DNA of 24,905 nucleotides, from positions 1-24,905 of IMG/VR virus record IMGVR_UViG_3300000116_000070; one strand, given 5' to 3'. The number at the start of each line of letters is the position of its first letter. Position 1 is the stretch's first letter. The DNA is from a virus. The position numbers were made by a program, and so were the translations under genes. This document shows positions 4,224-19,550 of this stretch, piece after piece. The notes beneath the pieces are model-generated. The model saw only the letters and a list, made by a program, of their open reading frames with translations, searched no databases and was not told the origin of the DNA.

Positions 4224-4580
4224 TTAGGTCCTTGTAACCGAAGGTGATACAGTGATCTGTCCTTCTAGTATTCTTTCTATGAGAGTGTTTGCAGCACTAT
4301 CAGTAGAAGAAATCTCCACATCATAGACATAACGACCGGCTTTCATTGCACCGGTCTGAGAATTGGTTAGTGTAAGATTAACAATTCCATCAGTAGCAGG
4401 TGATGCTATTTGAGTAGAAAATGTAACCGCATCAGAATCACTTGAAGAGTATGTTTTGCGAATTTGTGCAGCAACGGAATAACCTGTTAAGTTTTTCTTT
4501 GCGCCAGAAGTATCTACTAACTCTAATTGTATAGATTGGTCTGCACCTTGATCAATAGTTATATCTTCGTACTGCGACAT
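4224..4580 (-). CDS. Small beta-sandwich virion protein, 118 aa
   Basis: This small protein belongs to a recognisable phage type with one beta-sandwich domain. It shows LTGYSVAAQIRKT at residues 31-43, a GIVNLTLTNSQTGAM strand, GRYVYDVEI at 82-90 and LEGQITVSPSVT at 105-116. Similar domains occur as small structural proteins, or as N-terminal adaptor domains of baseplate and fibre proteins. It is therefore probably an adaptor that docks the following fibre proteins, which is inference from position. It is the first gene of a unit driven by an exact late promoter at 4614-4621, whose 5' leader can fold around the ribosome-binding site. It ends 9 bases before the 916-residue fibre. No enzyme motif is present. 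Confidence 0.85.
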   Translation of the reverse strand: MSQYEDITIDQGADQSIQLELVDTSGAKKNLTGYSVAAQIRKTYSSSDSDAVTFSTQIASPATDGIVNLTLTNSQTGAMKAGRYVYDVEISSTDSAANTLIERILEGQITVSPSVTRT

Positions 4581-4613: not shown

Positions 4614-4621
4614 TATTTATA
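4614..4621 (-). promoter_or_regulatory. T4-type late promoter
   Basis: The minus strand reads TATAAATA followed by AAGG. This is an exact match to the T4 late -10 word recognised by the gp55 sigma factor with gp33 and the sliding clamp. It lies 33 bases upstream of the ATG of the 118-residue gene, in the short space after the glycosyltransferase, and overlaps that gene's stop codon (4617-4619). Confidence 0.8.
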
Positions 4622-5333
4622 AGAAATATTTCTCCAAACCTTTGTAATGTTCTTCCGTACATTGAGATAAAATACAGAACGTACTATCAGGATCATAGTT
4701 GAGATTACCTTGAAGATGATGATCCAATCTCCCACCCTTTGCTCTATGGTACCAATCTTTTCCATATTGTAGGTAATTAAACTTGTTGTAGTTATGATAT
4801 GTGAACCTATCAAATCCATAATATTTAACCATGTGAGTATCAGGATCTTTAAAAAATTTATTATAAACCTCTTTCATATTGATAGGGTTAAACAACATCA
4901 CAGATGTATTTATGATAGACTCAGGGACAACTAAAATATTATCTGGTCTCCCTGTATACGGATGATTTACTCCATTATCTAAGGCCTTTATTGTTAAACA
5001 GTAATAGGGATCATATCTATCAATCAAGTAATCAAAATTGTTTTGAATAACAATATCAAGATCAAAGTAAAAAGTTGGCTGGTGTAAATCTAAGTTAAAC
5101 AAGCAAATCTTCCACCAATAAGATTCTAAATCAAGTTCTTTATTAACAAAAATTGTGTTGACATCTTGTTGTTTATCTGATATACAATAAAAAGAAAATG
5201 GTAGAGAGCAATTCCTCTTTACCATTCTATAAAGTCTATTAACATGTTGTTTATTGTATTTGTCGCCTACACAAACGCAAACTATATTAACATTCTGTTT
5301 CAAGATCCTCAATAACCTCTTCCCAGAACTCAT
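4617..5333 (-). CDS. Putative glycosyltransferase (GT-A fold), 238 aa
   Basis: The protein opens with a beta strand and helix typical of nucleotide-sugar transferases (NIVCVCVGDKYNKQHVNRLY). It then has FYFDLDIVIQNNFD, whose D-L-D is the metal- and sugar-nucleotide-binding DxD motif at residues 91-93 from the start used here. DNILVVPESIINTSVMLFN follows and resembles the acceptor-side segment of family 8-like enzymes. The C-terminus is rich in Tyr, His and Trp. The start is uncertain. The frame is open to an ATG at 5426, but that overlaps the oxygenase gene by 140 bases and adds a poorly conserved hydrophobic leader. ATG at 5333 (overlap 47) and TTG at 5303 (overlap 17, near a GAGG) are more plausible. 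It is the last gene of the cassette after the oxygenase. The substrate is unknown; a phage fibre is inferred. Confidence 0.75.
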   Translation of the reverse strand: MSSGKRLLRILKQNVNIVCVCVGDKYNKQHVNRLYRMVKRNCSLPFSFYCISDKQQDVNTIFVNKELDLESYWWKICLFNLDLHQPTFYFDLDIVIQNNFDYLIDRYDPYYCLTIKALDNGVNHPYTGRPDNILVVPESIINTSVMLFNPINMKEVYNKFFKDPDTHMVKYYGFDRFTYHNYNKFNYLQYGKDWYHRAKGGRLDHHLQGNLNYDPDSTFCILSQCTEEHYKGLEKYFL

Positions 5334-5961
5334 CAGCTTCATCAAAAACAAAAGCGACAGTAATACGATAATCATCTGTATAAGCTGCGTGATAACACAA
5401 TTTATCTGGGTCATCATATGGACCAAAATATGTCATCTTTGCTTGCCAACCAGGAACATCTTGAATACGAACTCTCTCCTGTTTTTCAAGATCCCAGTAA
5501 TCAAACCAACCGTTACCGTTTTCCGAGTATGTTATGATAATATTATACCCTTTAGCGTTTGCATTGTTATGCCAAGAAATAAATCCACCTGGAGGATAGC
5601 ATGCATTCAAAGCATTGTTGCGTGCTGACATAAATTCCATTAGCTTTGTGTTGAGAGTGCGTGAAGCATCTTTGATAACCTTACCACGCATATCTCCACC
5701 TTCATGCTTGAGACCTGCAAACCCCTTCAACACCTTTGGAAAGCCATCATGACCTGAACCCATATTAATAATTTCATGCATATACTCATCAGATAACCAG
5801 TCATCGGGAGTATCATCCTTGTGATTAACAGTCATTTCTTTTGTAATTAATGGTGTATCATCCCCAGGCTCTCTTTTAAGAAGAACATCCTTATATTCAT
5901 TGAGAATTTCTAAAAATTCTGAATTGCGTATATTAATATCTCTCACAGGTATTTGTGCCAT
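5287..5961 (-). CDS. 2OG-Fe(II) oxygenase-like double-stranded beta-helix protein, 224 aa
   Basis: The C-terminal half has the layout of a phage 2-oxoglutarate/Fe(II) dioxygenase. PPGGFISWHNNANAKGYNI places His131 on the first metal-binding strand. CYHAAYTDDYRITVAFVF supplies the distal His191, with Arg199 eight residues later where the 2OG carboxylate is normally bound. The usual carboxylate of the HxD triad is replaced: the motif reads His-Asn-Asn, so Asn133 stands where Asp is expected. Catalysis is therefore possible but not assured. The N-terminal 120 residues are charged and not recognised. It overlaps the preceding glycosyltransferase stop by one base (TAATG), with AAGGG about 8 bases upstream of the start, so the two are translationally coupled. 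Its position between two glycosyltransferases suggests side-chain hydroxylation of a virion protein. The fold assignment is fairly secure; the activity is inference. Confidence 0.75.
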   Translation of the reverse strand: MAQIPVRDINIRNSEFLEILNEYKDVLLKREPGDDTPLITKEMTVNHKDDTPDDWLSDEYMHEIINMGSGHDGFPKVLKGFAGLKHEGGDMRGKVIKDASRTLNTKLMEFMSARNNALNACYPPGGFISWHNNANAKGYNIIITYSENGNGWFDYWDLEKQERVRIQDVPGWQAKMTYFGPYDDPDKLCYHAAYTDDYRITVAFVFDEADEFWEEVIEDLETEC

Positions 5962-6800
5962 TATAAAAACCCTTTATCTCCAGTTTTGTCCATCCAACTT
6001 GAATAATGTATAACAACCGGATCACTTTTTGTTTTCCAGTAATCTCTATTTGGATCCATTTTATCCATGTTATATGTACCGTCAGTATTGAATCCAAATG
6101 AAGTAAAATAATTCCAACGATAGTTATCGTCAAAAAACTTCCAGGATAAATCTTTATATTTAGGACTATGGTATATCAACCACCAAAGAGTTAGCTGATC
6201 CCATTGTCTAAAGTTACCTTTTCTGATAGTATCAAATTCAGGTGGGTTCCATTTACAAACTTCTTGTTCAAGAAATAATTTATACCAATCATTCATAAAT
6301 TCTCTTACAAGCGGATTTCTTGTATCATATAACGCAACACCACCACAGTGAGCTAGATGATCAGGAACACCAGCGCAACCATCATCTAAGATATTAGGAC
6401 CCCATTGCCACTCTGTAAAATGTTTTGCACCTTGCTTGGTAAGATTGACATATACCATATCATACTTACCGTCCTCGAGTTGATCGAAAACATTCACTAT
6501 ATCACTATCTGCTATTTCTATATCAGAGTCAAGATAAAAAGTTAAATCGTATGGGGAGTTTGCCATTCCATACATTTTTTCTCGCTTGGTGTTACTCAGC
6601 GTAGGTAGGACTTGCTCAAAGGGAGTAAAGTATTTTTGAGTTTCTACATCATCAATGAATTTTTGTTCTGTAAATAAAGTAATCTTAGCTTCAGGATAAT
6701 AATCAAGAATAGACTCTGCGAGGTTTTGAGCACTCATTAAGAATTGAATTCTTTGGGAAGCAACTACAACAAAACCCTTAGACGGATTCTCCTGGATCAT
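5961..6800 (-). CDS. Putative glycosyltransferase (GT-A fold), 279 aa
   Basis: The N-terminus GFVVVASQRIQFLMSAQNLA is a nucleotide-binding strand and helix. KITLFTE follows, then a long segment leading to DLTFYLDSDIEIAD, in which Asp91-Ser-Asp93 is the DxD motif that binds metal and the nucleotide-sugar phosphates. Later, CGGVALYDT at mid-protein and VIHYSSWMDKTG near the C-terminus match the acceptor-loop and terminal His features of GT-A enzymes. No signal peptide or membrane segment is visible, so it should act in the cytoplasm during particle assembly. The ATG at 6800 lies inside the end of the previous gene (overlap 23 bases) with GGAG 7 bases upstream, indicating translational coupling. 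It is directly followed by the oxygenase. The sugar donor and acceptor cannot be read from sequence. Confidence 0.8.
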   Translation of the reverse strand: MIQENPSKGFVVVASQRIQFLMSAQNLAESILDYYPEAKITLFTEQKFIDDVETQKYFTPFEQVLPTLSNTKREKMYGMANSPYDLTFYLDSDIEIADSDIVNVFDQLEDGKYDMVYVNLTKQGAKHFTEWQWGPNILDDGCAGVPDHLAHCGGVALYDTRNPLVREFMNDWYKLFLEQEVCKWNPPEFDTIRKGNFRQWDQLTLWWLIYHSPKYKDLSWKFFDDNYRWNYFTSFGFNTDGTYNMDKMDPNRDYWKTKSDPVVIHYSSWMDKTGDKGFL

Positions 6801-7230
6801 TCATAATCTCCATTAATAAAATAGTAGCATATGCTTGCATTTCAATTTGATTTTTTGCTTTTCTAATTTTTGCTTTTAGCTTGCGATTAGTTGATTCTTT
6901 TATTTCAGGAATTTCAAATGTTGCAAGTTTTGCGTTAAAAAGATCTTCTAAACGCTTTGCTTCGTTGCGTTCTTGTTGCTTTTTAATATTTGCTTCTCTT
7001 TCCTGACGATGTCTTTCTAACCGCTCTTCTGTAAATGTATCAATTTGTTGTAGTGTATTCTGTTCGATGACTTCTTCATAATCAGAAGTAATTTTTCCAT
7101 CCACATCAAATTTAGAAACTTTGGCAACAGTCGTAGAAAAAGATCCATCATCATGAGTGATGTTTAACCTTACAGTTAATCTGTCTTTTGCTGCATTATC
7201 CCAAAATGGATGTTTCCATTCCTTTTTCAT
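6778..7230 (-). CDS. Charged coiled-coil phage protein of unknown function, 150 aa
   Basis: I recognise this as a type of small protein found near the fibre genes of marine T4-like phages, but its function is not known to me. Residues 1-60 contain EWKHPFWDNAAKDRLTVRL and look like a small beta domain. Residues 65-110 are a long charged helix (TEERLERHRQEREANIKKQQ) with coiled-coil character. A basic segment (KLKAKIRKAKNQIEMQAYA) and a short hydrophobic helix follow. The start has GGAGAGTT 8-12 bases upstream. It starts 12 bases after the tyrosine-repeat protein and overlaps the next glycosyltransferase by 23 bases. It could be an assembly chaperone or adaptor for the repeat fibre; that is inference from position and the coiled coil only. 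Confidence 0.8.
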   Translation of the reverse strand: MKKEWKHPFWDNAAKDRLTVRLNITHDDGSFSTTVAKVSKFDVDGKITSDYEEVIEQNTLQQIDTFTEERLERHRQEREANIKKQQERNEAKRLEDLFNAKLATFEIPEIKESTNRKLKAKIRKAKNQIEMQAYATILLMEIMNDPGESV

Positions 7231-7242
7231 TGTAACTCTCCG

Positions 7243-10008
7243 TTAAGCTATTCGTACATATAACGTATATGTTTCGTTTGTTTCACTAGTCGCATCAATC
7301 GTCTCACCAGCAAAGTTTCCAATAAAGTTTCCAAGGTAATCTTGGATGTATTGATCCTCAAAGTTTCTTGCATATTCAATTTGGTAGTTGCCAGTATAAT
7401 CAGTAACATAGTTGCCGGTATATGTTCCTGTGTACTGATTACTATACTCTCCGGTATATAGCCCTGTGTATATACCGGTATATAGCCGTTCGTATGTTGC
7501 ACCTGTATACTGATTCTCGTACGTGGGCCCATCGTAAGGACCACCGGTGTATTGTCTTTGATAAACAGTTGTATAGGTTCGTGTGTAAGTTCCAGTATAA
7601 CCTTTTTCGTAAAACGCTGCAAATGTATTTTGAAATTCATTTTGATATGAGTTAGCAAAATTACCAATATAATTACCAGCATAGTTACCTTGGTACGATG
7701 CTTGTGTATATGCCTTTTCATAAGGCAATCCAAAAGTATTCGTATAGTTAACAGTATAGTTTGTTAAATATCCTATTAGCCTATAATTAATAAAGTTTGT
7801 GCTATAGTTACCAGCATAAAGTCTTGTGTAGTTACCAGCATAGTTGGTTTGAAATTCTTTTTGATAACTCGCTTGGAAATTTCGTATATAATTTGGGACA
7901 TAGTTTGTTAAGAAATTGTTTACAAATTGAGATGTGAAAAGTCTTTGATAACCACCTGTATATGTAACTATATAGTTTCCAAGATAGTTAGTACCAAAAC
8001 CAACGGCTCTGACATAGTTACCAACATATTGCTGGGTTCCTTGATGGTCGTATGTGATAAGTCTAGTATAACTAGCTAGATATCCTGGCGCAATATAATT
8101 TACATTACGTGTATAATTTTTGTCGAAATATCGGAAGCCTATATAATTTTGAAATAGATATCCTTGGAATTGTCGCTCTCCGGTATAGTTTGCTGGAACG
8201 TTACGAAGGTAGAAAAAAAACGCGGCAAATTGTCTCGCATATAGCGCGGTTCTTACCCTGCCATTAAAAAACGCTGGGCCAGTATAATCTGTATTATATA
8301 GAATCTGACTTGAGTAGTATACTGCGGCTCCAGGGCCCGCAAAAGGCCGTGAGCCAATATAAAAGGGTTCAAGAACCCCCGCAAACACGACGGCTTCATT
8401 CCCATAGCCTCTTTGGTAATATAAAGCACCAGCAAAGCTTCCACTAAAGGTTGTTCTGTCATAAGGTACATCTCTTTGGTATGACCCGTCAAAAACTCTA
8501 TTATAATTACCTAGATACGTTACATCACGTGTATAGTTTCTGAGGTAATCCAATGAGAAATCAGATCCTTCAAATGATCTTTCATATGTTACATTGCTGT
8601 CGCTTGTATAGTTCCTTTGATATGCTGGATTACCTTGAAATGTTGGTGCTGTATAATCTTTTGCGTAATCTGTTACGTAGTTAGATGTGTAAAGTCTGGC
8701 ATAGGCACCAGTAAAGTTTCTGTTATAGTCACCAGTATAATTCCGAAGATAATTGCCAGTATATTGTCTTGTATAGTTACGCTGAAACGGTTGAGTGTAA
8801 TTGGATGTGTAGTTTGGAGTAAATGTTCTGTTATAATTGCCAGTATAGTTAGCCTGAGTATATGTTTCTACTCTATCAATTGTATAATTTGTTGTGTAAT
8901 TAGATGTGTAAAGTCTGGCATAGTTATTTTCATACGCGCTGGTATATGGAGTGCTATTAAACGTATTAATGAATACAGATGTGTATCCAATTGTTCTATA
9001 GTTGGTAAATGATGCTGTATAGTTCTTTAAATAGTTTGCAACATACGGTTGTGTAAACGATTCGGCAATTAATCCTGTGAATGCTGTAGAGTATGTTGTA
9101 ATATATGCAGGCGATTGAGTTACTCTTGTATAATCAATCTGGCTTAATTTTGTGTAGTTTGTTGTGTATGCACCTGTGTAAGCATTAGTATAGTTTGCCT
9201 GAAAGTTGGCTGTACTATCTCTTGTGAACACTTGATCGCTGGTTGTCTGCTTGGTGTCGGTAGCAGTTCCGCGAGCTACCCACGTTCCAGGATCTGTTGG
9301 TGCACCAGCTGTTGCACTACGTAATTGATGTTTTCCAATTCCGGAATTTCCAATACGAGTTTTTGCTCTTTGACCAAAAGAAAACTTAATCTGACGGTCA
9401 TTCATTTCTTTGATTTTTATACCAGATCCGCCTGCACTATCTTCAACATACATAGGTTTTACAGCAGTCGGTGCTGTGCCAGATGTTTTACGGTAAATGT
9501 TGTATGTTATTGAAGTACCGTCAGTTCTTGTATCAGTAAATGCAGCTTGTTGAACAGACCAACCGCCTCCAGGAGAGCTTGATGCAATTCTATAAGACCC
9601 TGGATATTCATTTGTAAATACTTTTGTTAAATATCTATCAACAGCTTCATTAAGATCAACATCAGGCATCATTTTGAAGCCAGTTTGAGATGCTGAATCC
9701 ACCCACATTAGAGGAGATAGAATATCCGAATCCGTCTCAGCAGCAGTACCAGTTGTTTGATATATTGTGGTGGTTGTTGTACCAGTTGTAATAGAAGTTG
9801 ATGGGTGAGTACCTACTGGTTGATTAAAGAAAGTGTTATCAAAAGAACCAACAGTATCCCCAAGTGTTGTTCTATTCAGAGAACCAACCTCAGCTGAATC
9901 CCCTTGCCCTAAATGCACACCCACCTGAAAGGCAACGTAGTTTTCTTCAGCAGTAGTTAACTCCTGAATATTACCACTGACGTCTTTTATCTTTAAAGGT
10001 GTTGCCAT
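7243..10008 (-). CDS. Tyrosine-rich tetrapeptide-repeat virion/fibre protein, 921 aa
   Basis: Residues 1-265 form an ordinary N-terminal region, including EENYVAFQVGVHL and a Thr-rich linker, and probably anchor the protein in the particle. From about residue 268 to 900 the protein is made of four-residue units with an aromatic residue (Tyr, sometimes Phe) first and often Asn or Asp last. Typical units are YTGN, YTRN, YTSN and FTGA. The spacing is exact from Tyr388 to Tyr452 (17 aromatics, every fourth residue) and from Tyr839 to Phe899 (16). Occasional five-residue slips such as YDGPT occur. Residues 455-660 are less regular and richer in Gly, Ala and Pro. A short non-repeat tail ends in YTLYVRIA. 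The gene opens a unit headed by an exact late promoter and is followed by modification-type enzymes. I do not recognise a named family for the repeat. A fibre role is inferred from context and length. Confidence 0.85.
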   Translation of the reverse strand: MATPLKIKDVSGNIQELTTAEENYVAFQVGVHLGQGDSAEVGSLNRTTLGDTVGSFDNTFFNQPVGTHPSTSITTGTTTTTIYQTTGTAAETDSDILSPLMWVDSASQTGFKMMPDVDLNEAVDRYLTKVFTNEYPGSYRIASSSPGGGWSVQQAAFTDTRTDGTSITYNIYRKTSGTAPTAVKPMYVEDSAGGSGIKIKEMNDRQIKFSFGQRAKTRIGNSGIGKHQLRSATAGAPTDPGTWVARGTATDTKQTTSDQVFTRDSTANFQANYTNAYTGAYTTNYTKLSQIDYTRVTQSPAYITTYSTAFTGLIAESFTQPYVANYLKNYTASFTNYRTIGYTSVFINTFNSTPYTSAYENNYARLYTSNYTTNYTIDRVETYTQANYTGNYNRTFTPNYTSNYTQPFQRNYTRQYTGNYLRNYTGDYNRNFTGAYARLYTSNYVTDYAKDYTAPTFQGNPAYQRNYTSDSNVTYERSFEGSDFSLDYLRNYTRDVTYLGNYNRVFDGSYQRDVPYDRTTFSGSFAGALYYQRGYGNEAVVFAGVLEPFYIGSRPFAGPGAAVYYSSQILYNTDYTGPAFFNGRVRTALYARQFAAFFFYLRNVPANYTGERQFQGYLFQNYIGFRYFDKNYTRNVNYIAPGYLASYTRLITYDHQGTQQYVGNYVRAVGFGTNYLGNYIVTYTGGYQRLFTSQFVNNFLTNYVPNYIRNFQASYQKEFQTNYAGNYTRLYAGNYSTNFINYRLIGYLTNYTVNYTNTFGLPYEKAYTQASYQGNYAGNYIGNFANSYQNEFQNTFAAFYEKGYTGTYTRTYTTVYQRQYTGGPYDGPTYENQYTGATYERLYTGIYTGLYTGEYSNQYTGTYTGNYVTDYTGNYQIEYARNFEDQYIQDYLGNFIGNFAGETIDATSETNETYTLYVRIA
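7290..9205 (-). repeat. 12-base coding repeat tract (tetrapeptide units)
   Basis: The DNA repeats with a 12-base period matching the tetrapeptide repeat of the overlying gene. Variants of gta-tag-tta-cca and gtg-tag-tta-gat recur on the plus strand, for example at 7390-7490, 8690-8840 and 8880-8930. Units are diverged rather than identical, so the tract is old or under selection at the protein level. The middle (about 8030-8650) is the least regular. Confidence 0.75.
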
Positions 10009-10045: not shown

Positions 10046-10053
10046 TATTTATA
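10046..10053 (-). promoter_or_regulatory. T4-type late promoter
   Basis: The minus strand reads TATAAATAATGT, an exact late -10 word. It lies 37 bases upstream of the ATG of the tyrosine-repeat protein (10008). The same 12 bases occur at the promoter at 22027-22034. The space to the start codon is A+T-rich with a weak AGG as the possible ribosome-binding site. Confidence 0.8.
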
Positions 10054-13894: not shown

Positions 13895-14102
13895 TTGTAC
13901 CGTTCTCTAATAATTTCTGCAACATGTTTTTCATTTGCTGAACTTCAGACTTTAGAGTGCTGATTTCCTCTTTATCATTTTTTATCCGTTCAACCATATT
14001 TAAGTGCTGCCTATGTTTATCCTTATTTATATTAACAATCATACCAGTTTGTGTATCCCTCGCGAGGTCTGGATGATCTTTAACAGGCATTAGATTTCTC
14101 AT
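13887..14102 (-). CDS. Small coiled-coil virion-associated protein, 71 aa
   Basis: The N-terminus contains a short conserved-looking segment ([20 protein letters not shown]). The C-terminal 35 residues form a heptad-like helix ([20 protein letters not shown]). Small proteins of this layout sit in the structural regions of marine T4-like phages; their role is not known to me. The start ATG overlaps the stop of the 563-residue gene by four bases (ATGA). Its own end overlaps the start of the S74 fibre by 8 bases, so all three should be translationally coupled. The gene also carries a late promoter word on its coding strand. It may be a connector or assembly factor for the fibre, which is inference. 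Confidence 0.8.
14024..14031 (-). promoter_or_regulatory. Possible internal T4-type late promoter
   Basis: An exact TATAAATA followed by AGG lies on the coding strand inside the 71-residue gene, 130 bases upstream of the S74 fibre start. It encodes part of VNINKDK. It could boost fibre transcription. Being inside a gene, it could also be chance in A+T-rich DNA. Confidence 0.45.
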
Positions 14103-15790
14103 GATGTAGCAATAATTCTCAGATTGCGGAAGGAAGGTGGGAATGATTCTCTTTGTGAATTCATTGTGATTTTTATCTGATACTGATCAAAAGCATCTAT
14201 ATCAAAGTCATCAAATTGATATTCTTTGAACATAAAATCATCCGCAGAAATCTCTGAGTACGTCTTACCCTGAGTGATTTTTGCTGTTTTACTAAACTCT
14301 GTCCATCCCTGATCTTCTAATTTTGAAGTTTCATCCGCACTGTTGACAGCTCTGTACCAAACAGAAAAGTCAGATTTGATTGGTCTAATTGCATCTACAA
14401 TAACAACTATAGATGTGGAAGAATTTTCCAATTGGTAAGGAACTGTGATATGTTTACTACCTGAAGTACCTCCATCTGCACTTGTTTCAGCAACAAAATC
14501 AACAGTGGAGATAATATTTCTTGTTTGGCTACCAGCATAATTGTCAGAATCTTGATAGTCGATCAAGTATTGTAGCGTGGATAAATGTGCTGCTCCAAGA
14601 TTAAAGTATGGCGCAACATTTGGATTATCCGTCCACATACTAATTGTAAACTTAGAAGATGGATTACCACTCAATCTCAAAGTTTCATTTTCCGCTGTGG
14701 CGAGAAGATGAGGATCAGAAAGTCTAATCATACTATTTGGTGAGATTCTGATGTTACTTGTTGTATTGTATGCAGTTTCATTACCAGCAAAACTTTTTGA
14801 TGTTGTTAGATCAGCTTTTGCCGATAAGTTGGTTTTACCAGGAGTCTGATATTGCAAATTCATAAACAACTCGTTGATAACGTAGTTCTCATTTGCTAAC
14901 AAACCAGTACCACCAGCTCTTATTGATGAGTCAGCTGCCGAATCCATCTTAAATGTATATCCAAATGGATCTGCTGCTGTAATGGTTCTTTGACCAAGAA
15001 TACTACTACCTAAAACACCATTGATAGTATCGCCACTATCAAAACTATTTACACCATCTGAAAACAGTGTTACCTTATCACCAACTTGGAAGCCGTGTCC
15101 TGGATGTCTTACTCTCAAATCAGAATCAGCTTGTGTAAATATCAATGGATCAAATGAATATTTACCTAAACCATCTATAACAGTAGTTTCTGTTAAACTT
15201 TTAAATGGAGGGTTGTCAGCATTCAATACAGCTGTGGCAATTGTTGATGTGTCAAATTGAGCTCTATACGCTTTAAAAGTAATGTCTTTTGATGGATCCG
15301 CTTCCCAAGCAGTTCCTGAAGATGAAGCAAAAAATGCACCTCTTTCAGTGGATGTTGATTGTGTATAAAAAGATGTTAATTTACCATATTTGTATTCAAG
15401 CGTTTCTGCCGTATAAATCTGATATTCGCCTGCAGGAGCAGAAGAATATAATACGAATGATACTAATGTGTTTGCAGGAACATACACAGGCTCTTCAAAC
15501 ACAAATTTGTGTTCTGGTGGACTTGAATAGAAAGTCGTTGTATCTGTCGTAGGACTGTTATCAAAGGAAATACCTGTTCCTGGTCCAGCTGTAACTCTTG
15601 TACCAGGAATATACCTTTTAGTTGAAGGAATACCACCTTCTGTAGTAGGTCTCAGTTCAACTGTAATTGGATATGTGCTACTTACAGAAGCAAAATAGAT
15701 ACCTATTCCTGTGAGAACAGATGCTTCATCCACAACAAAAGTTTGCGCTGTCGGATTAGCCTGTTGTGTTAATTGTAACGCTGCTGTCAT
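14099..15790 (-). CDS. Virion structural protein with fibre-like N-terminal domain, 563 aa
   Basis: Residues 15-33 (AQTFVVDEASVLTGIGIYF) begin a beta domain common in large marine-phage baseplate/fibre proteins. It continues with PITVELRPTTEGGIPSTKRY and VPANTLVSFVLYSSAPAGEY. In related phages this domain often lies in the C-terminal part of a long DUF4815-type protein; here it opens its own gene. The middle has a ligand-like beta region (RVRHPGHGFQVGDKVTL), and the C-terminus (FDIDAFDQYQIKITMNSQRE then [10 protein letters not shown]) is another compact beta domain. The start has AGGAAAT about 8 bases upstream. It begins 25 bases after the 253-residue gene and overlaps the 71-residue gene. 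No catalytic motif was seen. It is probably part of the baseplate periphery. Confidence 0.85.
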   Translation of the reverse strand: MTAALQLTQQANPTAQTFVVDEASVLTGIGIYFASVSSTYPITVELRPTTEGGIPSTKRYIPGTRVTAGPGTGISFDNSPTTDTTTFYSSPPEHKFVFEEPVYVPANTLVSFVLYSSAPAGEYQIYTAETLEYKYGKLTSFYTQSTSTERGAFFASSSGTAWEADPSKDITFKAYRAQFDTSTIATAVLNADNPPFKSLTETTVIDGLGKYSFDPLIFTQADSDLRVRHPGHGFQVGDKVTLFSDGVNSFDSGDTINGVLGSSILGQRTITAADPFGYTFKMDSAADSSIRAGGTGLLANENYVINELFMNLQYQTPGKTNLSAKADLTTSKSFAGNETAYNTTSNIRISPNSMIRLSDPHLLATAENETLRLSGNPSSKFTISMWTDNPNVAPYFNLGAAHLSTLQYLIDYQDSDNYAGSQTRNIISTVDFVAETSADGGTSGSKHITVPYQLENSSTSIVVIVDAIRPIKSDFSVWYRAVNSADETSKLEDQGWTEFSKTAKITQGKTYSEISADDFMFKEYQFDDFDIDAFDQYQIKITMNSQRESFPPSFRNLRIIATS

Positions 15791-16586: not shown

Positions 16587-19550
16587 CTACTGTGAAGATA
16601 TTTCTTCTGTACCGGCTGGTATTAATGATGAATTAGATTGTGATGCGTAGTTTTCATCAGTTTTTCTTCTGATTGTGAAATAATCACCTTCAGGCATAAT
16701 TAAACTAGACGCTATATGTTGAGATATTTCAAACTGATTAACTCTTTCATATCCTGTTGCGACTTGCTGACTAAAATCAGCAACTTCTTCAGTGTATGTA
16801 GGCCAAATTGTATTGCCTTTGATAACAGTTGTGTTTAATGATAGGTCAGAGTCATATGCAAACCCAACAGCACGAATAAATTTCTGAGCTGTGAGAATAC
16901 CATTGTTACGCCTCGCTCGATAATCTCCATCTCCTATATCTGACTGATTGCTATTGAAAAATCCTTCACCAGACAAGCCCTGGGTAGATCTGATTGTGTT
17001 TGTTGTTGGATCAATAACTTGTAGTTTTGCCAGCTCTTTTTCAGAAGCCGTTAGAGTTGCAAATTCTTCTAATCCTTCAACTCTATCTTCTAGTCTTCTT
17101 ATGTCTGACATCTTATAACCACGATTATCATATGTAAATGTATCCACATCGTTTTTGTTATAAGTAAATGGGTTGAAAAATAGATCATGAAGAATCATAT
17201 TTTCGGGTGGGATACCCGTTGGATATTGAGCATTTCTACTTGGAACGCCTTTATGATAGCTCAACGTTCCAGAAGGAGCAAGAGAAACAACATCATGTCT
17301 TGCATTCCAATACTGCGCGGTTCCAATATTAATTGTATCATTGTTCCGTGGAAGAGGTTGGATTCTAGCAACACCACCAGTAAACTTACCTGTTGCTGGA
17401 TTTTTCATAGGACGGATATCGATCACATCCGATAGTCTGTAAGTGTTACCTGTGTTTGAATAGAAGTAAGGAATCTGATCGTACGTAATACCAACATATG
17501 ATTGTGCATCGAAGTATCCGATCTGATTTGACGGAACAGTATCGTGTTCAAAAAAACGATACTCGGCCCAAACATTACCAGCTGGAGCAGTCACACCTGA
17601 CTTCAAAACTGCGCGGCCGGCGTCATAATAGTTATCTCTTTGACCGTTGTCAAATCTATACTTGTATGTTATGTTCTCGCCAGTTGCATCATCATAAACT
17701 GCATTGAATTGGAAGATATCTGTTTTTGTAAATGTAATAACATTATTAACTGGAGTCAAGTTAGAATCAACCTGCCATGTTCCGTCAGAAGGAGTTAGTG
17801 TCTTTTCTATACGTTGGCATTTTGCAGCTGGATATGTTTCGTATGCAAGTAATGTGAATGCACCATCAGGCACACCAGTAATAGTCGCACTACTTGAGCC
17901 AGCACCTCCTGATGTAATAGCAACTGGAGTTGTTAAAGCACCACTACTATCCACAGAATAGATCCATTCTTCTGTATCAGCAAACGTTGTTCCTGTTGTT
18001 GAAGTTACAGCTGTTGTTGCACCAGATTTTGTGCCTGTAATCATCTTCTGAACAGTCATTGAAACAGTATCAGCTGCATATGCTCTGTCTTGTTTCAATG
18101 GAAACAAAAGATTGTTTTGATCTTTATCAAATAATCCGTATTCACCACTCACAGCTTTCAGGTTTGCATAGGCGTCACTGTCTATACCAAACGATCTGAT
18201 CTGTGATACACTTTTGCCAGCATTCATCTGAACGTCAAATACATGAGTTCTGAAATCATCGCCAAACTTATCTAAGTTTCTTACTCTGGCTTCACCAATA
18301 ACAGTTCCGCTAGCCGCAATATTAACTTTGTCATATAGATTTACATGACCATATGAATCAGCAAATCTGCTAATCAAGCCAAATGTGCTATCCTCAGATG
18401 ATAAGAAATAGTTACCATACTTTGCTGCAATAATTTCTGTTGATACAGATGTTAAGTTTAGGGTGTTAGCAGCATTATTGGGCTTTCTTACTCTAAACGG
18501 TACATTATAATCACGTTCAATTCTATTACCGTTTACAAAAGCTGTACCACTAGAAATCTCAATTGAAAGAAAGTCTGTAGAAATACTATCTTCTTCTACT
18601 TTAAGGTCATACATACCTCCAGCTTTTCTTTCAATAAAGTCACCGGTTATACTTTCTGTTCTTGCAGATAGAATTTCATTAATTTTTCCAAGTGTTCTAT
18701 CAGGAGTTTTGATAACTGTAACATTACCACTAACAATTTTAAATACTTCATAAAAGATATCATCAATATCTGTATCTTCTTTTTTAGTGAGAGCCAATGT
18801 AATTTTTAAACGATCAGCACCAGGAGATGTTAAGTTAGGATTTGCACCAGAGTTATCATAAAGTGCAATATTATCACCTGCAGTAATAACTTGTTCAGTA
18901 ACTTTAAATCCAACAGTACCACTATATGTGTTACTTGTAGCATCTAACACAAGAGTCTGAGCTTCTGTTGTTACTAAATGTCCTGCAGCAAATGTATCAA
19001 ATGCAGGTGTTTCTATCAAAGATGATTTACCCACCGCATCGTTTGTATTTAAAATAGTTGCCGAACCCAAAGTAGTTGTAATAACTGTATTTTTAATGAA
19101 TGTAAAAGGTTCAGAAGGATTAGCCGCAACAGAGCTAGAGGTTCCATCAGCTTTTGTTAATCTTACGATTAATGTTCCTGGAGGAGTATCTGTGGCTGTG
19201 TTATCCGGTACAATAGCTTTTACTTGAGCAAACAAGATGTTGTTATAGTTGATTTCTGTACCCTTCAAACCAACATAACCATCAGGCAAAGCTGCTACTT
19301 TAATATAAGTATATGAAGCAGCTCCAATACCTGAAGAAAGTGTACCAGAATTGTTGAATATAGAACCTTCTTTTACAACAAACTTAGCTAATCTTTCAAC
19401 TTCTTTTTGAATAATAGTTTGTAACTGTGTAAGTTCACGAGCTTGTAATGCTCTACCATTGTTAAAAAGGATACGATGAAAATGATCGCTATCTCTATAG
19501 TCGTCGTTATACTGACTTAAAAATGTTGTCTTTGATACGTTCGTCGCCAT
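16587..19550 (-). CDS. DUF4815-type virion structural protein, 987 aa
   Basis: The N-terminus carries the family's signature: residues 8-50 include TFLSQYNDDYRDSDHFHRIL and GRALQARELTQLQTIIQKEV. The large middle is beta-rich. A second hallmark, GYKMSDIRRLEDRVEGLEEF near residues 812-832, is the helical segment seen in this family in marine T4-like phages. The C-terminus ends with IMPEGDYFTIRRKTDENYAS. The gene follows gp8 after 9 bases, where T4 has gp9 and gp10, suggesting a place on the outer baseplate wedge. The ribosome-binding site AGGA is 7 bases upstream. The protein is co-transcribed with the next two structural genes, which look like its missing C-terminal domains. The precise role in the particle is not established. 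Confidence 0.9.
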   Translation of the reverse strand: MATNVSKTTFLSQYNDDYRDSDHFHRILFNNGRALQARELTQLQTIIQKEVERLAKFVVKEGSIFNNSGTLSSGIGAASYTYIKVAALPDGYVGLKGTEINYNNILFAQVKAIVPDNTATDTPPGTLIVRLTKADGTSSSVAANPSEPFTFIKNTVITTTLGSATILNTNDAVGKSSLIETPAFDTFAAGHLVTTEAQTLVLDATSNTYSGTVGFKVTEQVITAGDNIALYDNSGANPNLTSPGADRLKITLALTKKEDTDIDDIFYEVFKIVSGNVTVIKTPDRTLGKINEILSARTESITGDFIERKAGGMYDLKVEEDSISTDFLSIEISSGTAFVNGNRIERDYNVPFRVRKPNNAANTLNLTSVSTEIIAAKYGNYFLSSEDSTFGLISRFADSYGHVNLYDKVNIAASGTVIGEARVRNLDKFGDDFRTHVFDVQMNAGKSVSQIRSFGIDSDAYANLKAVSGEYGLFDKDQNNLLFPLKQDRAYAADTVSMTVQKMITGTKSGATTAVTSTTGTTFADTEEWIYSVDSSGALTTPVAITSGGAGSSSATITGVPDGAFTLLAYETYPAAKCQRIEKTLTPSDGTWQVDSNLTPVNNVITFTKTDIFQFNAVYDDATGENITYKYRFDNGQRDNYYDAGRAVLKSGVTAPAGNVWAEYRFFEHDTVPSNQIGYFDAQSYVGITYDQIPYFYSNTGNTYRLSDVIDIRPMKNPATGKFTGGVARIQPLPRNNDTINIGTAQYWNARHDVVSLAPSGTLSYHKGVPSRNAQYPTGIPPENMILHDLFFNPFTYNKNDVDTFTYDNRGYKMSDIRRLEDRVEGLEEFATLTASEKELAKLQVIDPTTNTIRSTQGLSGEGFFNSNQSDIGDGDYRARRNNGILTAQKFIRAVGFAYDSDLSLNTTVIKGNTIWPTYTEEVADFSQQVATGYERVNQFEISQHIASSLIMPEGDYFTIRRKTDENYASQSNSSLIPAGTEEISSQ

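Follow-up and report, generated by a model that had tools for sequence, protein, structure and literature searches.

A conserved late gene unit in marine T4-like phages suggests chemical decoration of a repetitive appendage protein

Introduction

Glycosyltransferases of mycobacteriophages have been proposed to glycosylate virion proteins, and to our knowledge no linked oxygenase, adaptor or repeat-array protein has been described for them. Virion glycosylation is mentioned for phage Maravista (PMC11256854). For the 2-oxoglutarate (2OG)-Fe(II) oxygenase genes of cyanophages, a role in 2OG metabolism or DNA repair has been proposed (PMC3037559). By analogy, the closest functional precedent for the genes described here is Mimivirus L230, with which a virus hydroxylates and then glycosylates its own repetitive protein (PMC9614988). 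This report concerns a block of five genes in a 24,905-nucleotide stretch of viral DNA (IMG/VR record IMGVR_UViG_3300000116_000070, positions 1 to 24,905; the window), which lies in a 36.5-kb uncultured phage contig of T4-like type. In this block a repeat protein is followed by a putative adaptor, a predicted glycosyltransferase, a protein of the 2OG oxygenase fold and a second glycosyltransferase-like protein. The analysis suggests that marine T4-like phages chemically decorate one of their own appendages. Searches of the open-access literature found nothing on tetrapeptide repeats in phage tail fibres or on hydroxylated and glycosylated phage fibres.

Results

The five genes

The block comprises the following open reading frames (ORFs).

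10008-7243, minus strand: REP, repeat protein of 921 aa with an N-terminal domain, a tetrapeptide array and a C-terminal strand
7230-6778, minus strand: ADP, 150 aa with a conserved C-terminal helical part, putative adaptor or assembly factor
6800-5961, minus strand: GT1, predicted GT-A-type glycosyltransferase with DxD at residues 91-93
5961-5287, minus strand: OGO, predicted double-stranded beta-helix (DSBH) protein of 2OG oxygenase fold, H131-x-N133...H191...R199
5312-4617, minus strand: GT2, accessory DxD glycosyltransferase-like protein, probable TTG start at 5312

All five ORFs were confirmed where an earlier note on this DNA had placed them, with overlaps or with gaps of no more than 12 bases. 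REP and ADP are 12 bases apart, ADP and GT1 overlap by 23 bases, and GT1 and OGO overlap by 1 base. The start of GT2 is most likely the TTG at 5312, because the homologues in loci L003 and L059 begin M(R)ILKQ; this codon sits behind an AGAGG site and gives a 26-base overlap with OGO. The TTG at 5426, which would begin the longer ORF, is disfavoured. Pfam and PHROG assigned no family to REP, ADP or OGO, family searches with ADP gave no informative match, NCBIfam had no match to GT2, and sequence profile searches of the PDB returned nothing useful.

Conservation of a four-gene unit

Homologous loci were collected by profile scans of IMG/VR, which took the best 80 of up to 340 loci each and cover the stronger relatives, followed by hidden Markov model searches of the fetched loci. 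This gave 140 dereplicated loci, most of them fragments. The order REP-ADP-GT1-OGO is present in 121 of the 140, and the remaining loci are mostly truncated. GT2 is found beside this unit in only 24, and therefore the conserved unit consists of four genes, ADP among them. The earlier note had proposed a cassette of five; its first four members stand, but GT2 is not a core member.

Where loci were found through REP alone and have enough downstream sequence, ADP (34/34), GT1 (31/31) and OGO (31/31) are always present. In each of 14 cassette contigs of 105-160 kb, ADP and GT1 are present once only, along with REP and a single OGO. Two extra GT1 matches in the long-contig searches have E values of about 5e-4 and span 41 positions only. 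A control contig without OGO also lacks REP, ADP and GT1. ADP and GT1 overlap or abut in 127 of 127 loci, and GT1 and OGO overlap or are no more than 20 bases apart in 129 of 131. The apparent exceptions mostly resolve: L060, L098, L204 and L207 are artefacts of start-codon overlap, and in L238, L283 and L256 REP is present a few genes upstream. Enzymes frequently found without the repeat protein, or the reverse, would have spoken against the proposal in the earlier note, and the survey comes down clearly on its side.

The unit is intact in the highly divergent phages L320, L321 and L323; the OGO of L320 has 31% identity to the C48C1 paralogue used as query. It is kept where the neighbouring genes differ, in L320, L323 and the L279 clade. 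The sole near relative among isolates is phage C48C1 (Kyanoviridae), which has a 3347-aa REP, ADP, GT1, OGO and then the 118-aa gene that also follows the block in the window. Its REP, OGO and GT1 are 29-41% identical to the window proteins, its GT2 relative is located away from the cassette, and OGO matches no other isolate. No paper on C48C1 was found in the open-access literature.

Some loci vary in gene number or source. L134:3805-10654 has the order REP-ADP-GT1-REP-OGO, with a second REP between GT1 and OGO, and in other loci REP genes often stand in tandem. The contig of L321 and L322 (JAAXIF010000028.1) is in a metagenome-assembled genome named Sphingobacteriales bacterium, and that of L323 (CALPIE020000128.1) is in one named Bifidobacterium breve. 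L321 and L323 carry the cassette and L322 carries capsid genes; these are probably mis-binned phage sequences.

Late promoters

Two matches to the T4-type late promoter motif bound the block.

10046-10053, minus strand: late promoter motif TATAAATA, 38 bases 5' of REP
4614-4621, minus strand: late promoter motif of the next unit (118-aa gene, 4224-4580), which marks the end of the cassette

The window contains four such motifs with 2.8 expected, a number that is not significant alone. Their placement is recurrent. Of 117 homologous loci, 61 have the motif in the 150 bp before REP (background 3.8%), which bears out the late promoter that the earlier note had set at the start of the block. Near the starts of the downstream genes it occurs in 0 of 126 loci (ADP), 0 of 127 (GT1) and 12 of 133 (OGO), and within 150 bp after OGO it occurs in 90 of 128. 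With TATAAATA before its first gene, REP, the block has the signature of a T4-type late transcription unit.

The repeat protein

REP can be divided into three parts.

9223-10008, minus strand: N-terminal domain, residues about 1-262, of partly similar modules (from alignment)
7312-9222, minus strand: tetrapeptide array, residues about 263-899 (from aromatic i,i+4 periodicity)
7246-7311, minus strand: conserved C-terminal strand ending ETYTLYVRIA

The tetrapeptide repeat claimed from the window sequence is real: 98 Tyr/Phe pairs stand four residues apart in the array, and 1000 shuffles gave 34.6 on average and never more than 50. Among 121 proteins directly upstream of distinct ADPs (10,653 repeat units), aromatic residues are in about 3.3-3.5-fold excess at spacings of 4, 8 and 12 and depleted at the others. 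The family consensus is [N/D][Y/F][T/A/V/S][G/R], with N 39% and D 24% at the first position, Y 57% and F 43% at the second, T, A, V and S at the third, and G 60% and R 17% at the fourth. The arrays are poor in Lys (about 0.2-0.4%) and Pro (about 1%). Complete REP proteins measure 325-3347 aa, with the C48C1 protein at the upper end, and 106 of the 121 ORFs upstream of ADP have an ETYTLYVRIA-type ending. The window array contains 23 N-glycosylation sequons (shuffle mean 12, maximum 21); this enrichment is not taken as a sign of N-glycosylation, because it follows from the N-Y-T consensus.

A short homologue (L074, 430 aa) was modelled from 60 sequences. Residues 1-266 and 403-428 fold confidently, with a predicted local distance difference test score (pLDDT) of 90-98 for the N-terminal domain and 94-98 for the C-terminal part, which is an ordered strand. 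The array between them is unstructured (pLDDT <50). In this model the ETYTLYVR C-terminal strand appears to complete the base domain, so that the array would leave the base and return to it. Modules 2 and 3 of the base are related (hhalign E 3.8e-10, probability 96.7%), and module 1 has a weaker likeness. A resemblance of the modelled base to pseudo-threefold beta-prism (MABP-like) domains is only suggestive; the best comparisons (2qp2, Z 7.0; then perforin-2, Z 4.0-4.6) are in the range of chance arrangements. Foldseek searches with REP against the PDB and viral models gave no significant match.

Interruptions of the array tend to be central, 35 of 51 falling in its middle 30% with 15 expected, a significance that is overstated because the proteins are related. 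The two arms of the array are of similar length in many REP proteins. On the simplest reading the array may form a hairpin stalk with a tip, since both of its ends are anchored in one domain in the model and its interruptions are mostly central. The earlier note had called REP a fibre; the topology implied by the term is perhaps wrong. Charge complementarity between the arms (40/59, p 0.001) is small and inconsistent by clade, and was not used.

OGO

The AlphaFold2 model of OGO (83 sequences) has a pLDDT of 95.3. Foldseek matched it to a prolyl-4-hydroxylase with an E value of 4.6e-5, and structural comparison gave Z 10.2 over 143 residues with PiuC (rmsd 2.8), 10.1 with a bacterial prolyl-4-hydroxylase, about 10 with PHD2 and 9.3 with the viral collagen prolyl hydroxylase 5c5t (VIA). 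Sequence and profile searches found no recognisable family match. The model places OGO in the Fe(II)/2OG oxygenase superfamily by its predicted DSBH fold. H131, H191 and R199 are invariant among the 83 sequences, and H191 and R199 are placed at the starts of consecutive strands; the spacing of the motif agrees with that of PHD2 (H313, D315, H374 and R383). R199 would be the basic residue after the distal His that binds 2OG. Both His of the HxD/E...H metal triad are kept, but every one of the 132 distinct sequences has Asn at the third position, which makes the motif HxN where HxD would be standard. The earlier description of OGO as 2OG oxygenase-like holds for the fold but not for the metal motif. 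Because the HxD/E ligand is absent, hydroxylation by OGO cannot be assumed and is a candidate activity only. Human AspH is active with two His ligands and HxG (PMC10947486), and therefore HxN does not imply that OGO is inactive.

OGO has paralogues in the same phages. A second clade, also with WHxN, includes L301-L319, L004, L322 and C48C1 18267-18920 (L298). Its members have a gp19-like tail-tube gene, directly behind gp21-gp22-gp23, on one side and on the other a gene that is annotated as UvsY-like in C48C1. They occur in many contigs, some of which also have the REP cassette, and may modify another virion protein; glycosyltransferase-like genes are nearby in L004, L302 and L305. A third paralogue is at 40130-40804 in C48C1 (L298), and third matches were also found in G001-G004, G006 and G010. 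This paralogue is not part of the structural region; in several phages about 22-27 kb separate it from the second.

GT1 and GT2

Both proteins have the DxD motif claimed for them, LDSDIE in GT1 and FDLDIV in GT2. D91 and D93 of GT1 are invariant in 68 sequences. Members of its family match Pfam GT8 (best E 7.6e-6), and 10 of 68 match Pfam GT2; the window protein itself is under the Pfam cut-off (E 0.025). By motif and family similarity, GT1 is predicted to be a GT-A glycosyltransferase. In GT2, D82 and D84 are invariant among homologues, and 2 of 22 members match Pfam GT8 at E 0.004. Profile comparison of GT2 with GT1 gave no match outside the DxD stretch. In L265, L279, L294 and L323, GT2-like genes form clusters downstream of the cassette, on the other strand.

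Flanking genes and relatives of the phage

Two genes flank the block.

13894-10175, minus strand: S74-type tail fibre gene, on the REP side
4580-4224, minus strand: 118-aa tail-fibre-assembly-like gene, after GT2

The gp6-like protein of the window is nearest to that of C48C1 (37%), then to those of cyanophages, Pelagibacter phage HTVC008M and Methylophilales phages. A megablast search of phage sequences with the entire window gave no match. Elsewhere in the window, two genes (14099-15790 and 16587-19550) share matches to PHROG families 358 and 877 and cover separate portions of them. The arrangement looks as though one large structural protein had been split, and a 253-aa gene lies in between.

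Discussion

A dedicated virion-modification cassette is well supported. In its specific form, GT1 would glycosylate and OGO would oxidise REP, a putative late structural appendage protein, and we give this a probability of about 0.52. REP as the substrate best explains why a putative structural protein and two likely modifying enzymes form a late, overlapping and almost invariant unit. REP would be made late as an appendage with a folded base and a long aromatic tetrapeptide array that leaves the base and returns. ADP, GT1 and OGO would be translated from the same late message in overlapping frames and would work on REP either ahead of assembly or while it proceeds. Sugars would be attached by GT1, joined in some phages by GT2, and OGO, an HxN variant of the 2OG oxygenase fold, would oxidise side chains. 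The arrays have hardly any Lys or Pro, and any modification of them would therefore have to be on Asn/Asp, Tyr/Phe, Thr/Ser, Arg or Gly; most simply, OGO could create or tune attachment sites on the recurring Asn/Asp, Tyr/Phe and Thr/Ser. Modified REP could, for example, shield or stabilise the virion or make contact with a receptor. That the repeats are first hydroxylated and then glycosylated is plausible and as yet unproven. The fullest version is somewhat doubtful: a hairpin array of hundreds of [N/D][Y/F]xG repeats with both ends on one base would be acted on first by an oxygenase whose HxN metal site is new, and dedicated glycosyltransferases would then turn it into a sugar-coated stalk.

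Several observations weigh against oxidation and glycosylation of REP. The surrounding structural operon is syntenic in general, and a substrate cannot be named from co-occurrence alone. Correlations between distance matrices (11 usable loci) were as high for control genes as for the cassette genes, a comparison that was uninformative as support for the cassette. OGO lacks the usual carboxylate ligand and may not hydroxylate. The OGO family also works away from REP, beside the gp19-like gene and elsewhere, and therefore its chemistry is not confined to REP.

Some of these points would fit GT1 and OGO acting on REP or its neighbours independently of one another. GT1 would glycosylate existing Thr, Ser, Tyr or Asn of the array, and OGO would modify the sugar, ADP or another tail protein, or would be a non-oxidative binding protein, as its HxN may imply. 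The arrays are already rich in Thr, Ser and Tyr hydroxyls and therefore hydroxylation is not needed for glycosylation; there are also OGO paralogues without an adjacent GT1. We consider this rather unlikely, however: OGO and GT1 are co-inherited almost without exception, which fits interlocking functions, and the catalytic-site His, His and Arg are invariant. Two His ligands suffice for activity in AspH (PMC10947486), so that HxN need not mean an inactive OGO. An effect of the enzymes on the host surface, such as lipopolysaccharide, or on other virion proteins, with their place after REP reflecting only the order of a late operon, appears improbable. In pelagimyophages, glycosyltransferases encoded in the host-recognition region have been interpreted as modifying the O-antigen (PMC7029224), and control genes such as the 118-aa gene are syntenic too. 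Late expression without a promoter of their own, however, is a poor fit to early surface masking, the block stays intact where its neighbours change (L320, L323, L279 clade), and GT1 and ADP were not found without REP in the long contigs tested. The linkage to REP argues against host-modification and metabolic readings of the OGO and GT1 families and is not proof.

If REP is the substrate, this would be a widespread and compact phage system that builds a post-translationally modified appendage, a chemistry otherwise known mainly from giant viruses. Glycosyltransferase and 2OG genes of marine phages could then be read as virion-modifying and not only as host-modifying or metabolic. The invariant HxN in a hydroxylase fold would test how far 2OG chemistry departs from the standard triad. 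The REP family is a directly testable substrate candidate, with up to hundreds of similar sites.

Comparison with known systems

The prolyl hydroxylase PBCV-1 vCPH (5c5t) and the bacterial and PHD2 enzymes carry HxD. The predicted fold of OGO is the same overall (Z 9.3 to 10.1), but OGO has HxN, no detectable sequence family match and a Pro-poor substrate candidate next to it. Human AspH, a protein hydroxylase without a carboxylate ligand that acts on Asn/Asp, is a functional precedent (PMC10947486); AspH has HxG and OGO an invariant HxN. T4-like cyanophages are related marine phages with several genes of the 2OG fold (PMC3037559). Unlike those genes, OGO is tied to REP and GT1 and has its isolate match only in C48C1.

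The earlier note had drawn an analogy with collagen, which is weak chemically. Collagen-type systems have Gly-X-Y repeats with Pro or Lys targets; REP, judged from its sequence, has a period of 4 and almost no Lys or Pro in its array, and therefore hydroxyproline or hydroxylysine chemistry of the collagen type cannot apply. As in Mimivirus with L230 (PMC9614988, PMC5802723), an Fe/2OG oxygenase-type protein and a glycosyltransferase are encoded by one virus, with REP as the probable target here. L230 is one bifunctional polypeptide with HxD that acts on Lys of Gly-X-Y collagen, whereas the cassette consists of separate genes, with HxN and an aromatic tetrapeptide array nearly without Lys and Pro, in a tailed phage.

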